The notes under the pieces are model-generated. The model saw only the letters and a list, made by a program, of their open reading frames with translations. It was not told where the DNA came from and searched no databases. Made by a program: the position numbers and the translations under genes. Positions 1,560 through 38,368 of a DNA stretch of 64,000 nucleotides are shown here, piece after piece. This DNA is from Oscillatoria princeps RMCB-10 (lineage in GTDB: Bacteria > Cyanobacteriota > Cyanobacteriia > Cyanobacteriales > Oscillatoriaceae), in NCBI GenBank assembly GCA_019359235.1, contig JAHHHT010000022.1:62001-126000 (forward strand), in the 5' to 3' direction. Each line of letters begins with the position of its first letter. Position 1 is the first letter of the stretch.

Positions 1560-4500
1560 GTGAGTGACTCTGAAATTTCTGAATCGATTGACAGGTTGCG
1601 CCGGCTGACTCGGTTTAATGTCCAAGACGGCTGGCGGTATTGCTTGGCAGATTTGCCGGTGGCTGAGGTGTTCGCCACATCTGTGCAGCACTCGCCTGTT
1701 GCCGGGCTTAATGCTAAAGGTTACATCATCTGGCCCGCTGGCCGTCAAGTGCTCTGGCTTTTTCAGCGCCTGACTGTTCCCCACGACTCGCACGGCTATC
1801 CTTTACAAGGATTAACCATGCGGCTGTCGCTGAGTTGGTGGGCTGAAGACGCCCGCGTTTTCGTCAATGGCGAGCTAGTCCTGACGGGAGATTTGTTTGA
1901 TTCCTCATCGAGACTGCTGCTGGCCTGCGAGGCCAGCCCGGGCGAAGAGTTTGCGGTGGCTTTGCGGCTGGTGAGCCCCGGACACGATGCCGGCGCTTTG
2001 GTGCGCTCCCTCTGTCTGTATGAAGCTCCCGATCTCAACTGTCTCGATCCCGGTTTTGTCGCTGATGAATTAGAGGTCTTGCAGGAGTGGGGTTTGACAA
2101 ATTCCCAATATCCCCCCACTGATATCGTATCCTCTGCGCGTCAAACTGTCAAGGGGGAAACGATAAAATCTCAAATCGATTTAATTGACTGGGCAGCGCT
2201 GCCGGACCGGCAGCAGTTTGACGCTTCTCTGTCTCGGATGCGGCAAAAGATTCTGGAGGTTTTGGAACCGCAGATGAGCGCAGATGAGCGCGGATGTGCG
2301 GGAGATGAAAGGATCGGTATTTATGCGCGTGCGTCTGCGGTTGACTGTTACAAAATTTGGCTGTTGGGGCACGCTCATTTGGATTTGGCGTGGCTGTGGC
2401 CGGTGAGTGAAACCTGGTCAGCGGCGCAGCGAACTTTTGAATCGGCTTTGGGGCTGCAGAAAGATTTTCCAGACCTGATTTTTTGCCACTCGACACCGGC
2501 ACTCTACGCTTGGGTTGAAGAAAACCGCCCTGACTTGTTTGCGGCGATTCAGGAGCGGGTAGCCGCCGGCAAGTGGGAAGTGGTGGGCGGAATGTGGGTG
2601 GAGCCGGATTTAATTCTGGTTGACGGCGAGTCGATTGTGCGGCAAGTTCTGTACGGACAGCGCTACGCGCGAGAAAAATTCGGTCAGGTGATGCCGGTGG
2701 TCTGGGTTCCCGACAGTTTTGGGTTCTGCTGGCAGCTGCCTCAAATTCTCAAGCAGGGCGGGGTAGAATATTTCGTGACTCAAAAGTTGCGCTGGAATGA
2801 CACGACGAAGTTTCCCTATGGGGCTTTTTGGTGGGAAGCGCCGGATGGCAGTCAGATATTCAGTCTGATGTCGGCTTTGATTGGGGAAAGTATTGAGCCG
2901 GTGAAAATGGCTAAGTATTCCTGTGAGTGGGAAAGGCAAACGGGTTTGAAAGACGCGCTCTGGTTGCCGGGAGTTGGCGATCACGGCGGCGGACCGGCAC
3001 GCGACATGTTGGAAATCGCCCAGCGGTGGGAGCAGTCTCCGTTTTTCCCGCGTTTGGAGTTTACAACGGCTGTGGATTATTTGCGTCGCGTACAGGCAAG
3101 TTTGTCTGGGGGCGCACCGGCACAGCCAACCCCACCCCCTAACCCCCTCCCCGCTAGCGGGGAGGGGGAAAAGAGGGAAAAGAGTGGGGCGATTCCCGTC
3201 TGGCGGGATGAACTGTATTTGGAATTCCACCGGGGTTGCTACACGACTCACGCTGAACAGAAGCGGTGGAACCGCCGGTGTGAGGGGTTGCTGTACCGGG
3301 CGGAACTGTTTGCCTCGCTGGCGGCTATCAGTGCCGGTGCGCCTTACCCAAAAGCTGAATTAGAAGATGCCTGGAAGAAGGTGCTGTTTAATCAATTTCA
3401 CGATATCCTTCCCGGTTCTTCGATTCCCCAAGTCTATGTCGATGCGAATCAAGCTTGGGTGGAAGTGGCACGGGTTGGCTCGCAAATCTTGCAGGGGGCG
3501 CTGAGCGCTATCGCCGCGCAAATTTCTCTGCCCCATCCGCCGCAACCGGGCGCAATTCCTGCGATTGTCTTCAATCCTCTCAACTGGAGGCGTTCAGAGG
3601 TGGTTGCAATTTCCCTGCCGGCATCCCCCCCTTTTCAAGGGGGGGTAGGGGGGGAGCCAAACTGGGCAGTTTGCGACTTGCAAGGAGAGCCGCTACCCTC
3701 CCAGCTTTCTGACAGCGGGACGCTGCTGTTTCTCGCTGCGGATATCCCGCCTGTTGGCTACTGCGTCTTCTGGCTAATCCGCCGAGAGGCTGATGATAGG
3801 GACAGGGGGGACGCCTGTCCTGCGCCGGATGCCGGTGCGGAGAAAGAGTGGGTTTTAGAGAATGAGTTTCTCCGGGTGGCTGTTGAGGGTGAAACTGGAA
3901 ATCTCCGCAGTGTTTTTGATAAGGTGAATTGCAGGGAAGTCCTGCAAGCCGGTGGAAATCAGCTGCAAGCTTTCGCAGACAGTGGCCAGTATTGGGACGC
4001 CTGGAATATTGACCCGAATTACGAACAGCACCGGCTGCCGGCACCTCAGCTGAAATCGGTGGAATGGGTGGAGCGAGGCGCTGTGCGTTCGCGCCTGCGC
4101 GTTGCGCTGCAGTTGGGCGAGTCGGAGTTGCGCCAGGATTATATTTTGGATGTGGGGCTGCCGGTGCTGAAAATTGCCACGACTGCAGACTGGAAGGAGC
4201 GTCACGTTTTGTTGAAAGCTGCTTTTCCGCTGAACTTGGAAGCGGATTTCGCGACTTATGAAATTGCCTGCGGCGCGATTCGGCGAACGACTAAACCCCA
4301 GACGCCGAGTGAGAGGGCAAAATGGGAGGTGCCGGCGCTGCGCTGGGCAGATTTGAGCGAAGAGCCCAGCCCAACTTCGGGGATGTCTTACGGGGTGAGT
4401 TTGTTGAATGATTGCAAATACGGTTACGACGCTAAGCCGAATCAGTTGCGCTTAACGCTGTTAAGAAGTCCGAGCTGGCCAGATCCAGACGCAGATCGGG

Positions 4501-4922
4501 GGTCGCACGAATTTACTTACGCCGTGTATCCTCACGCCGGCACCTGGCAATCTGCTGGCACAGTTCGCCGGGGTTACGAGTTAAATCAGCCGCTGCAGGT
4601 GATGATTCTGCCTGAGGTTTCTCGCCCCCCTGGCGCAATCGAGCTGCCGGCTGTTGGCTGCTTGTTGGATTTGTCCGCTGAGAATTTAATCTTGATGGCG
4701 TTTAAGCAGTCGGAGGACAGTCCCAATCGGTGGGTTCTCCGGTGTTATGAGTGTCACGGGGAGGAAGCGCAGCTGAGGCTGGAGAGCGATTTGGGGCTGG
4801 AAATTGAGCGGACGGTGGATTTATTGGAGCTGCCGGCATTAGCGCCGGAACCAGACGGGCATGATTGCCGAATTGCGCCTTGGAAGATTGCCAGTTTCGC
4901 GGTGGCTGCCGGTGTTGAGTGA
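1560..4922 (+). CDS. Alpha-mannosidase, glycoside hydrolase family 38
   Basis: Zinc-dependent retaining alpha-mannosidase of 1120 residues that would release mannose from glycans or storage oligosaccharides. The start is GTG, preceded by AAGGGG eight bases upstream. The GH38 zinc/active-site motif GHAHLDLAWLWP lies near residue 270. The catalytic aspartate motif VWVPDSFGF is near 384, and the conserved FHDILPGSS is near 613. The C-terminal half is the usual beta-rich GH38 region. There is no signal peptide, so it is probably cytoplasmic. The gene is unusual in containing four in-frame stretches that match repeat families found elsewhere between genes in this window: residues about 236-251, 520-545, 686-702 and 745-760. 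These add low-complexity segments such as PTPPPNPLPASGEGE between conserved blocks without breaking the frame. The specific substrate cannot be told from sequence. Confidence 0.93.
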   Translation: MSDSEISESIDRLRRLTRFNVQDGWRYCLADLPVAEVFATSVQHSPVAGLNAKGYIIWPAGRQVLWLFQRLTVPHDSHGYPLQGLTMRLSLSWWAEDARVFVNGELVLTGDLFDSSSRLLLACEASPGEEFAVALRLVSPGHDAGALVRSLCLYEAPDLNCLDPGFVADELEVLQEWGLTNSQYPPTDIVSSARQTVKGETIKSQIDLIDWAALPDRQQFDASLSRMRQKILEVLEPQMSADERGCAGDERIGIYARASAVDCYKIWLLGHAHLDLAWLWPVSETWSAAQRTFESALGLQKDFPDLIFCHSTPALYAWVEENRPDLFAAIQERVAAGKWEVVGGMWVEPDLILVDGESIVRQVLYGQRYAREKFGQVMPVVWVPDSFGFCWQLPQILKQGGVEYFVTQKLRWNDTTKFPYGAFWWEAPDGSQIFSLMSALIGESIEPVKMAKYSCEWERQTGLKDALWLPGVGDHGGGPARDMLEIAQRWEQSPFFPRLEFTTAVDYLRRVQASLSGGAPAQPTPPPNPLPASGEGEKREKSGAIPVWRDELYLEFHRGCYTTHAEQKRWNRRCEGLLYRAELFASLAAISAGAPYPKAELEDAWKKVLFNQFHDILPGSSIPQVYVDANQAWVEVARVGSQILQGALSAIAAQISLPHPPQPGAIPAIVFNPLNWRRSEVVAISLPASPPFQGGVGGEPNWAVCDLQGEPLPSQLSDSGTLLFLAADIPPVGYCVFWLIRREADDRDRGDACPAPDAGAEKEWVLENEFLRVAVEGETGNLRSVFDKVNCREVLQAGGNQLQAFADSGQYWDAWNIDPNYEQHRLPAPQLKSVEWVERGAVRSRLRVALQLGESELRQDYILDVGLPVLKIATTADWKERHVLLKAAFPLNLEADFATYEIACGAIRRTTKPQTPSERAKWEVPALRWADLSEEPSPTSGMSYGVSLLNDCKYGYDAKPNQLRLTLLRSPSWPDPDADRGSHEFTYAVYPHAGTWQSAGTVRRGYELNQPLQVMILPEVSRPPGAIELPAVGCLLDLSAENLILMAFKQSEDSPNRWVLRCYECHGEEAQLRLESDLGLEIERTVDLLELPALAPEPDGHDCRIAPWKIASFAVAAGVE

Positions 4923-4982
4923 GTCGTTTTAATAATGAACCGCTCCTCAGCCAAGGACGCCAAGAAAGAAGAAGTAATTTCC

Positions 4983-5377
4983 TCGTTCCCAGGCTCCGCC
5001 TGGGAACGCCTTTTTGGAGGCTCTGCCTCCTTCTCTCCAACCAATTACAGCAATGGACAAGGACATTGGGACAGGCAAGATGCCTGTCCTACGAGGTATA
5101 TCCGTAGGGCAGGCGAGACGCCTGCCCTCTATGTCTAATACCATCTCAAAGAAACTGGGTTTCTCAGAAGTCGCTCTCTCGCCCCGCCGCTGGGTTGCAG
5201 CCACCGGCTTGCGCCAACTCTGGCAGGGGTCAAACTGCCAGATTTCCGGTGCCGCAGCAGGTGCCGGCGCAAATCTAAAGACTTAGTTAAATTAACAGCT
5301 TTGTGGTTCAATTGCTGTAAAATAGGATACGTTTGAAAGAGAAGTAGGGTGCGTTCCCCTTGGGGAACGCACCCTAC
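4983..5377. repeat. Cluster of three dispersed palindromic repeat families
   Basis: The 490-base gap after the mannosidase is nearly all repeats. At 4983-5030 there is CGTTCCCAGGCTCCGCC followed by GGAGGCTCTGCCTCC. At 5068-5128 two palindromes of the type GGGACAGGC-n-GCCTGTCC occur in tandem. At 5344-5377 there is TAGGGTGCGTTCCC facing GGGAACGCACCCTAC. Each family recurs at other places in the window. No gene is seen in this interval. Confidence 0.85.
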
Positions 5378-31868: not shown

Positions 31869-33257
31869 TTAATAAACCCCACGCAATGAAAGCTGCAAAT
31901 AAGTCGCAACTTGAAATATCAGCCTTTTAATATAAAAACGCACCGGCGCAAAGCTCTCCCATTTAACGCTCCCTTCCAGGTTCGCGGTGAGCCGGCGATC
32001 GAGAATTGCTTGATAAAGTGAAACCAGCGTCTGCGAGCACAGATCAAAAGCCGAAATCAAGCGCTCCACCGGCTCGTATACCGCCCACGGCTCCAGATAG
32101 GCATTGCGCAGGCGCGTCCGCGCATCCGGCACATCAGTCAGCTCCATTTCAATCTCGTACAAAAACCGAACTGTGTCGAAAAAAGGATGTGAAATGCAGC
32201 TGTCAGACCAGTCAAAATAGATATAATTATCGCCAGTAAAATAGATATTTCGAGGCGATAAATCGCCATGCACTAGGGTGTGGGGGACACCCAGCTGCGC
32301 TAATTCCTCCCACAGGGCTGCCAGTTGCGGAGCAAAGGCGAGAAGTTGGGCAATTTCTGGCTCGCGCAGAGCATCTTGAAACAGCAGGTGGATTTGGGAT
32401 GCCAGCCGGTCGAGCCTCATATCCAGCCAGCCTTGAGCTATTAAGCTATCCAGGTGCTGAACGGAGTCGATTTGGATTTGGGCGAACCGGCGCAGTGCAG
32501 CTTCCCACATCAAAATATCAGGAACCTGTTGCAGGATTTTGCCGCCCACATCCCGCATCAAAATCCAGCGCTTTTCAAAGTCAGCTGCCAAAACCACGGG
32601 AAGGTGGGCGGGGTAATATTTAGTTAGGGCTTGAGTGAGTTGCGGCTCTCGGGCAAAGAGAGCCGGTGTTGCCTTGAAATAAACGTTTCCCGCAGTTGTT
32701 TTCACCCGCAACACACAAGCAAGCTTCCAAGCTTTTAATTGCTCAATTGCAGAGAGAGCGCCCAACCTTTGGCGATTGAGTTGCTCGTGAATCCAGCCAG
32801 AAGCCAGATCGAACCAGCCAGGAATTGCCCAAGGCACGTCACCCTCTCGGATCGCAACCCCTTCCGCCTCGTCAAACCAAGCTTTCAACAGATCAAGGTG
32901 TTCGGGAACCGCCAGTTTGAGCTGATTCAGTTCGTACCGGCTAACCCAGCGCCCCCATGCCGGTGGATTCCAGCTAGAGCTGTGGTTTTCCAGCGCATAC
33001 ACCCGTTGCAGATATTTCTGGCGATTCAAGTGATGGTAGACGCAGCGCAGCACCGTTACTTCTATGCCCAACTGAGCTTGCATTGCCCGGTTGATATGAC
33101 CGACAGCGCCAAAGTGTTGCTCAACCGGCACGAAATGCGGTAAAATCCAGCCATCCTCACCCGACAGCAGCAGCACCAGCGGCTCACTCCTGTGGGGAAT
33201 GATAGTGTAATAGTGAAATTTAATCTCCGGGAAGTGACACACCGGCGTTTGACTCAT
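31869..33257 (-). CDS. Phosphotransferase (APH/choline-kinase fold) protein
   Basis: A 462-residue protein started at the ATG at 33257 (MSQTPVCHFPEIKFHYY); the frame runs on upstream through GCCTGTCCC repeats, which are not part of the gene. The C-terminal half has the aminoglycoside-phosphotransferase catalytic loop VPHTLVHGDLSPRNIYFTG and the metal-binding IYFDWSDSCISHPFFD. The N-terminal 160 residues (LVLLLSGEDGWILPHFVPVE ... AVGHINRAMQAQLGIEVTVL) resemble a Nudix-like sensing domain, without the full Nudix box. The substrate is unknown; small-molecule or sugar kinases are the usual family members. It is probably not an antibiotic-resistance gene, given its length and chromosomal setting. 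Confidence 0.82.
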   Translation of the reverse strand: MSQTPVCHFPEIKFHYYTIIPHRSEPLVLLLSGEDGWILPHFVPVEQHFGAVGHINRAMQAQLGIEVTVLRCVYHHLNRQKYLQRVYALENHSSSWNPPAWGRWVSRYELNQLKLAVPEHLDLLKAWFDEAEGVAIREGDVPWAIPGWFDLASGWIHEQLNRQRLGALSAIEQLKAWKLACVLRVKTTAGNVYFKATPALFAREPQLTQALTKYYPAHLPVVLAADFEKRWILMRDVGGKILQQVPDILMWEAALRRFAQIQIDSVQHLDSLIAQGWLDMRLDRLASQIHLLFQDALREPEIAQLLAFAPQLAALWEELAQLGVPHTLVHGDLSPRNIYFTGDNYIYFDWSDSCISHPFFDTVRFLYEIEMELTDVPDARTRLRNAYLEPWAVYEPVERLISAFDLCSQTLVSLYQAILDRRLTANLEGSVKWESFAPVRFYIKRLIFQVATYLQLSLRGVY

Positions 33258-33338
33258 CCTTAAATTCCCACTGTATTGTGCCGGCGCACTTTGGCATCCT
33301 GAAAGGACGTAAGATTCATTTTCTCCCCCCTTTTTGTG

Positions 33339-33419
33339 TGTGGGACAGGCGAGACGCCTGTCCCACGCCTTCGAGACGGACAACGCCTTTGGGACAGGCG
33401 GGACGCCTGTCCTACGCCT
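33339..33419. repeat. Two GGGACAGGCGAGACGCCTGTCC palindromes
   Basis: GGGACAGGCGAGACGCCTGT and GGGACAGGCGGGACGCCTGT, separated by about 30 bases, lie between the APH-fold gene and proC. Confidence 0.8.
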
Positions 33420-33444
33420 TCCTCGACAGGTCAGCGATCCCCGG

Positions 33445-34263
33445 CTAACTCCCCAGTTCCTTGGAGCGCTCGCTAGCCGCTCGAATCGCCTCAATCAGCG
33501 CCGAACGCAAACCGGCACGCTCCAGCTCAGCGATCCCGGCAATCGTCGTCCCCCCCGGACTGGTCACCTTGTCTTTCAGTTCAGCAGGGTGCATTCCCGA
33601 GTCGCGCAGCAGTTGGGCTGTACCCAGGACGGTTTGCAGGGCGAGTTTAGCGGCGACCGCTCTCGGCAGACCAGCACAAACGCCGCCATCTGTCAAGGCT
33701 TCGATGACAATGGCCACATAACCTGGGCCAGAGCCAGACAGGCCGGTGACTGCATCCATGAGGGATTCTGGGACTTCTACCACCTCACCCACAGCCTGAA
33801 GAATGCGCTGGGCCCGCTCGATGTGGGCGGGGCGGACGCCGGTGCCGGGTGCGATGGCGGAGATGCCGGCACCGACGGTAGCCGGCGTGTTGGGCATGGC
33901 CCGGATTGCCGGCCACCCTGGAAAAGCAGCTTGCAGCTTGCTGAGGGGGACGCCGGCTAAAATCGAAACCAGCACTGGAGGTTCCATGCCGGTCAGACCG
34001 GCAACCGTACCCGAGATATCAGCCGCCACGGACTCAAAAACTTGAGGTTTAATGGCCAAGAGCAGCACTTCTGTAGCGCACGCAGCGGCTCGATTGTCTC
34101 CCGTGACAGCAACTCCGTATTGCTGTCCCAGAACACTGCGGCGGTGCGGTTGGGGTTCGCTCACCAGCACTTCCTCGTGCCGGTAAATCTGTTGAGCGAC
34201 GAGGCGGGACAGGAGAGCTTCTCCCATGACCCCGCCCCCAATGATGCCAAGCTTTACAGTCAT
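33445..34263 (-). CDS. proC: Pyrroline-5-carboxylate reductase
   Basis: A 272-residue enzyme that makes proline from pyrroline-5-carboxylate using NADPH. The N-terminal Rossmann motif is LGIIGGGVMGEALLSRL. The family signature follows in the central part (LLAIKPQVFESV, RAMPNTPATVGAGISAI), with the substrate region LSGSGPGYVAIVIEALTDGG and the C-terminal VTSPGGTTIAGIAELERAG. It lies downstream of sepF by 78 bases on the same strand, in the conserved pipX-pipY-sepF-proC order of cyanobacteria. Confidence 0.96.
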   Translation of the reverse strand: MTVKLGIIGGGVMGEALLSRLVAQQIYRHEEVLVSEPQPHRRSVLGQQYGVAVTGDNRAAACATEVLLLAIKPQVFESVAADISGTVAGLTGMEPPVLVSILAGVPLSKLQAAFPGWPAIRAMPNTPATVGAGISAIAPGTGVRPAHIERAQRILQAVGEVVEVPESLMDAVTGLSGSGPGYVAIVIEALTDGGVCAGLPRAVAAKLALQTVLGTAQLLRDSGMHPAELKDKVTSPGGTTIAGIAELERAGLRSALIEAIRAASERSKELGS

Positions 34264-38306: not shown

Positions 38307-38368
38307 TCCCCCCTAGCCCCCCTTAAAAAGGGGGGAAGAATACTAGCCCCCCTTTTTAAGGGGGGTTG
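38307..38368. repeat. CCCCCCTTTTTAAGGGGGG palindromes
   Basis: Two tandem copies of the CCCCCTTAAAAAGGGGGG type between ecfT and the chorismate enzyme. Confidence 0.75.

Follow-up and report, generated by a model that had tools for sequence, protein, structure and literature searches.

The GH38 alpha-mannosidase gene of Oscillatoria princeps RMCB-10 contains four segments which we consider, with a probability of roughly 0.87, to be in-frame insertions of dispersed repeats, inserted recurrently and surviving only in tolerant loops. Dispersal of the repeats, their location in loops, one presence/absence difference, reuse of the loops across genera and near-neutral change of the inserted residues were all observed. 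The window, i.e. the whole stretch of 64,000 nucleotides that was analysed, corresponds to C44:62001-126000 of the 8.49-Mb genome.

The GH38 gene and its in-frame repeats

The genome search matched no second gene of this kind. Pfam recovered Glyco_hydro_38N (1.2e-86), Alpha-mann_mid, Glyco_hydro_38C and Glyco_hydro38C2, with matches far above the cut-off, and the complete domain set (N, middle and C) is kept despite the four inserts. The best structural folds are GH38 enzymes, e.g. Ams1 and Bl_Man38A. Positions H271, H273, D275, D385, H614 and D615 are invariant columns among the homologues, and we take them to be the residues with catalytic roles in GH38. Among named organisms, the gene has its closest relatives in Oscillatoria sp. 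Prado101 and Oscillatoria sp. PCC 10802, each 89% identical, and the dN/dS outside the inserts is 0.22 and 0.26, respectively; the gene is under purifying selection. The Rfam search of the gene did not find any known RNA family. The features discussed below are the following.

1560..4922, forward strand: GH38 alpha-mannosidase gene, 1120 aa, GTG start, intact ORF
2269..2297, forward strand: site 1, F1 repeat, decamers GCAGATGAGC/GCAGATGAGC/GCGGATGTGC, loop 236-260
3128..3176, forward strand: site 2, F2 C-rich hairpin repeat, encodes TPPPNPLPASGEGEK, loop 513-543
3624..3655, forward strand: site 3, F3 palindrome TCCCCCCCTTTTCAAGGGGGGGTAGGGGGGGA, encodes SPPFQGGVGGE, loop 688-700
3799..3820, forward strand: site 4, F4 palindrome GGGACAGGGGGGACGCCTGTCC, encodes RDRGDACP, loop 744-758
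Stretch within the GH38 inserts, predicted from the open frame: PASPPFQGGVGGEPNW
5068..5127, forward strand: two intergenic F4 copies 3' of the GH38 gene, for comparison
38317..38365, unstranded: intergenic F3 in its usual form of two inverted units, for comparison

The sequence-only reading had placed four repeats in frame inside the mannosidase gene and stated that they add codons without a stop or frameshift. All four were found as claimed, with slightly refined extents, and the open reading frame runs through every one of them. In the window, the F1-F4 patterns were each above every dinucleotide-preserving shuffle. Genome-wide searches resulted in 179 forward matches for F3 (CCCCCCTTTTNAAGGGGGG, at most one mismatch; controls 0 forward and 1 reverse), 200 forward matches for F4 (GGGACAGGC..GCCTGTCC; control 0) and 96 + 103 matches for the C-rich hairpin F2 (control 0). 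F2, F3 and F4 are high-copy dispersed palindromes with about 200 or more matches each. F1, with its GCAGATG decamers, is a low-copy, poor palindrome and the weakest case among the four; its exact matches number only 13 over the two strands of the genome (control 0). The F4 copy at site 4 has one degenerate arm (ACAGGgggGACGCCTGT). F3 occurs mostly in doublets and is read in several frames (SPPFQGG, PPLFKGG and APLFKGGW); F2 and F4 are mostly single.

Further copies of F4 were noticed elsewhere in the window. The region 4923-5300 holds F4-type copies at 5068 and 5106 and further repeat-like sequence. The N-terminal part of an ORF with an APH (phosphotransferase) domain at 31869-33494 on the reverse strand overlaps two F4 copies, and the start of this ORF may be misplaced.

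Comparison within Oscillatoria

We aligned the DNA of the GH38 gene from the window strain, Prado101 and PCC 10802. The window strain and Prado101 carry the F3 copy at site 3, which PCC 10802 lacks. This difference of 27 bp, which keeps the frame, is the sole presence/absence case within the genus. PCC 10802 has approximately 11 bp of unrelated sequence at this place, compared with approximately 38 bp in the filled allele. Neither a target-site duplication nor a clean junction was seen at site 3 in this alignment. The genome of PCC 10802 (8.6 Mb) contains 26 forward F3 matches, about seven-fold fewer than the window genome, and that of Prado101 (4.4 Mb, incomplete) contains 115.

The F1, F2 and F4 inserts are common to all three Oscillatoria, and parts of the palindromes have eroded in one strain or another; in the congeners, decay affects the palindrome arms of sites 2 and 4. 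Sites 1, 2 and 4 are polarised as probable additions by outgroups only. Within the inserts, dN/dS was 1.06 against Prado101 and 1.30 against PCC 10802, values obtained from just 57-66 codons of uncertain alignment. The inserted residues evolve near-neutrally while the rest of the enzyme is conserved.

The same loops in other cyanobacteria

We compared 78 further cyanobacterial GH38 homologues. Most of them are without all four inserts, and their loops are shorter at all four sites. The prediction that the inserts should be absent in some strains was thus borne out within the genus for site 3, empty in PCC 10802, and not for sites 1, 2 and 4, which are filled in all three congeners. The same residues in all homologues had been named as the outcome speaking for ancestral segments; this was not what we found, given the empty site 3 of PCC 10802 and the many homologues without inserts.

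The loops are also occupied by repeats in other genera. In Microseira, the GH38 gene contains F3 three times at site 3, and in Nostoc relatives F3 lies at site 1 in another frame (APLFKGGW). L020, L026, L029 and L049 have another palindrome, GAGACGCGATTNATCGCGTCTC (RDAINRVS), at site 2 or 4 of GH38, and their genomes contain 68-241 forward copies of it. Among other genomes, 15 of 20 have 0-2 copies, and 11 of the 24 tested overall have none; some genomes with copies, e.g. those of the window's congeners, are without this palindrome in GH38. Tandem heptamers and AAATCC repeats occupy these GH38 loops as well. When 81 GH38 genes were searched for 12 repeat patterns, 43 of the 45 matches fell inside the four loops, which comprise 10% of residues, a figure that is descriptive because part of the list of patterns was drawn from the loops. 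The site 1 loop in L069, L074 and L009 (Microcoleus, Phorm 6) displays a large tandem expansion (..FSGDLDEGTAEGAE..ENSNSTSIYIGESG..), and in L074 an F4-like copy lies within it.

Loop tolerance and protein structure

Among the GH38 homologues outside Oscillatoria, we ranked 44 variable-length segments by the variance of their length, and sites 1, 2, 3 and 4 took ranks 1, 2, 3 and 4. The AlphaFold2 model of the mannosidase has a mean pLDDT of 84 and falls below 50 in the segments 182-196, 245-259, 519-542, 751-754 and 757-760. Three sites (1, 2 and 4) therefore coincide with low confidence, at 245-259, 519-542 and 751-754/757-760, and site 3 falls in the block 691-700 with a mean pLDDT of 52. 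The model has one further disordered segment, 182-196, in which none of these repeats was seen.

It is strongly supported that the insert sites tolerate extra sequence as loops, and these loops are presumably surface-exposed. Tolerance at loops was one of two explanations offered from the letters alone, and it agrees with the variance ranks, the low pLDDT, the neutral change and the other repeats found in other genera. The second, that the repeats can donate protein segments, held up in so far as the repeats lie in the open frame, but a selected function of the inserted residues is not evident.

Repeats in other genes of the genome

In a 1.65-Mb sample of the genome (L090-L169 and the window), intergenic-enriched 12-mers were used as repeat words. 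These words cover 10.95% of the DNA outside ORFs and 0.72% inside. An interior repeat cluster was present in 59 of the 777 ORFs of at least 200 aa; because ORF calling was mechanical, these numbers are approximate, and several of the short ORFs may be spurious. The commonest short repeat in the sample, ahead of F1-F4, was AGAAACCSGGTTTC; one 14-mer of it has about 268 matches. We also asked whether the repeats are unusually stop-free, and this did not hold in general: F4 and F2 exceed random genomic DNA in open frames, and F3 and the GAGACGCGATT palindrome have fewer open frames than such DNA.

We dropped the view of GH38 as an exceptional gene, since a CobN-type protein (Pfam CobN-Mg_chel; L114:6948-10949, G000:C29:86948-90949; L191, L192) has more repeat clusters, with five in frame. 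At the corresponding loops of this protein, the congeners have other repeats or no repeat. A hydantoinase A-B fusion (L168:9669-13442, G000:C26:169669-173442; L195) has HTLTPNPSPIKGEG versus ETRFLGETRFLG in PCC 10802, and its linkers contain F4/F1-type residues. In both proteins the repeat at a given loop differs between congeners, one example being F3 twice in the window strain versus HPSPLMGEGLGVRVG in Prado101. Dispersed palindromes were identified in frame also in kinase-WD40 and CHAT proteins.

An earlier comparison of indels in 72 pairs around GH38 showed GH38 site 3 as the sole case of palindrome presence/absence, and a wider syntenic sample was needed for the general pattern. We sampled 338 orthologue pairs between the window strain and PCC 10802, considering indels of at least 5 aa and counting an indel as repeat-bearing when repeat words made up 14 nt or more. 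Out of 77 internal indels, 20 (in 12 genes) contained repeat words, with 0/77 in the reversed-word control, and the words covered 6.9% of the indel loops versus 0.8% elsewhere. Proline- or alanine-rich indels free of any dispersed repeat also occur in several other places.

Origin of the inserts

Short repeats, mostly palindromes, crowd the intergenic DNA, and we propose that they spread through the genome. A copy entering a gene would usually disrupt it and hence be lost, but it may persist if it keeps the frame, is free of stops and lies in a tolerant loop or an inter-domain linker. In GH38, four tolerant loops would have taken up repeats that were then tandemly duplicated, eroded and replaced by new ones, independently across many cyanobacterial lineages, and the residues would drift neutrally after insertion as an unstructured linker. 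We infer both that the repeats are actively mobile and that a survival filter acts on the copies. The genome has six matches to Y1 transposases, and a link between these and any of the repeat families was sought but could not be established; Y1 genes of L087 and L089 have F3 and GGGAACGCACCC repeats close by, but DNA outside ORFs is rich in repeats throughout. A broader proposal, that short dispersed palindromes are a leading and ongoing cause of loop and linker length change in cyanobacterial proteins and that specific loops are recurrent landing pads, with unrelated families succeeding each other there partly through mobility favouring such sites, seems to us possible but doubtful.

The mobility process could also have a target-site preference that adds to survival in tolerant loops. 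The F3 copies of Microseira and Oscillatoria share their first codon, the one following LP[A/D], as well as orientation and frame, and the gene tree does not show Microseira as the sister of Oscillatoria. However, unrelated families (tandem heptamers and AAATCC repeats) share the loops and a survival filter suffices, and we regard such a preference as rather unlikely.

Selection for the inserts, either as useful linkers or as mRNA hairpins which pace translation at domain boundaries, would fit their positions, as three of them immediately precede a domain (N beginning at 265, middle at 555 and C at 766). Three of the four inserts also form RNA hairpins better than shuffles, with z = -3.9 at site 2; the fold at site 3 (z = -1.4) does not clearly outdo the shuffles. 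The insert dN/dS near 1, the arms decaying at sites 2 and 4 and the short loops with which most homologues manage all argue against this explanation, which we find very improbable.

The segments might instead be ancestral parts of GH38 that were lost elsewhere, with the intergenic repeats derived from the gene, and the presence of sites 1, 2 and 4 in all three Oscillatoria would fit such a history. It is made extremely improbable by the prevalence across the tree of homologues without inserts and with shorter loops, by the short-loop homologues from outside the genus that branch basally on either side in the tree, by the different repeats that other genera have at the same loops, and by the many intergenic copies along with those in unrelated genes. 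Chance or compositional convergence, in which proline/glycine-rich linkers of a GC-rich genome come to resemble C/G-rich repeats, fits the low-complexity linkers at the insert sites and the proline/alanine-rich indels without a repeat, but it is scarcely credible given that specific 19-32-bp palindromes match with controls near zero, that the reversed-word control gave 0/77 and that Nostoc-type genomes put a different palindrome in the same loops in step with their own repeat load.

Relation to known repeats

The inserts behave like Rickettsia palindromic elements (RPEs), although the elements themselves differ. For the RPEs (Ogata et al. 2000, reviewed in PMC10969869), section 4.2 of the review describes several dispersed palindromic families lying in frame in unrelated metabolic genes, with inserts that, by prediction, the protein structure can accommodate. 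The palindromes studied here are likewise dispersed and in frame in unrelated genes (GH38, CobN-type, hydantoinase fusion, kinase-WD40 and CHAT). However, RPEs are about 150 bp long with a conserved peptide, whereas our units are 20-50 bp and are read in several frames within a family; moreover, they are mostly intergenic, come from unrelated families and reside in a cyanobacterium.

The small dispersed repeats (SDRs) of cyanobacteria (Elhai et al. 2008, Genome Res. 18:1484, cited in PMC3116915) are very short, high-copy and probably mobile. F2-F4 are also very short, high-copy and dispersed, and plausibly of the SDR kind. The REP/REPIN and RAYT (Y1) systems (PMC3116915) have short palindromes often in inverted pairs; F3 is usually a doublet of this sort, but F2 and F4 are mostly single. 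They differ in that no RAYT could be tied to the families here, where a minority of copies lie within genes. Finally, in-frame length variants inside genes of related bacterial strains, in some cases several per gene, have been reported (PMC2884548). Our case differs in that about a quarter of the indels of at least 5 aa trace to dispersed repeats and that loops are reused across genera.

In-frame palindromic elements in metabolic genes, for which Rickettsia is the best-known case, and very small mobile repeats in cyanobacteria are already known. New here are the several unrelated short families, the reuse of loops across genera and the estimated share of protein indels. Related cyanobacteria fill the same loops with other repeats, and non-coding DNA thus keeps supplying spare protein loops. 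The comparison of two congeners (338 pairs) gives a first estimate, with repeats in about one quarter of the indels of at least 5 aa, and the contribution of non-coding repeats to protein evolution becomes directly countable and testable.
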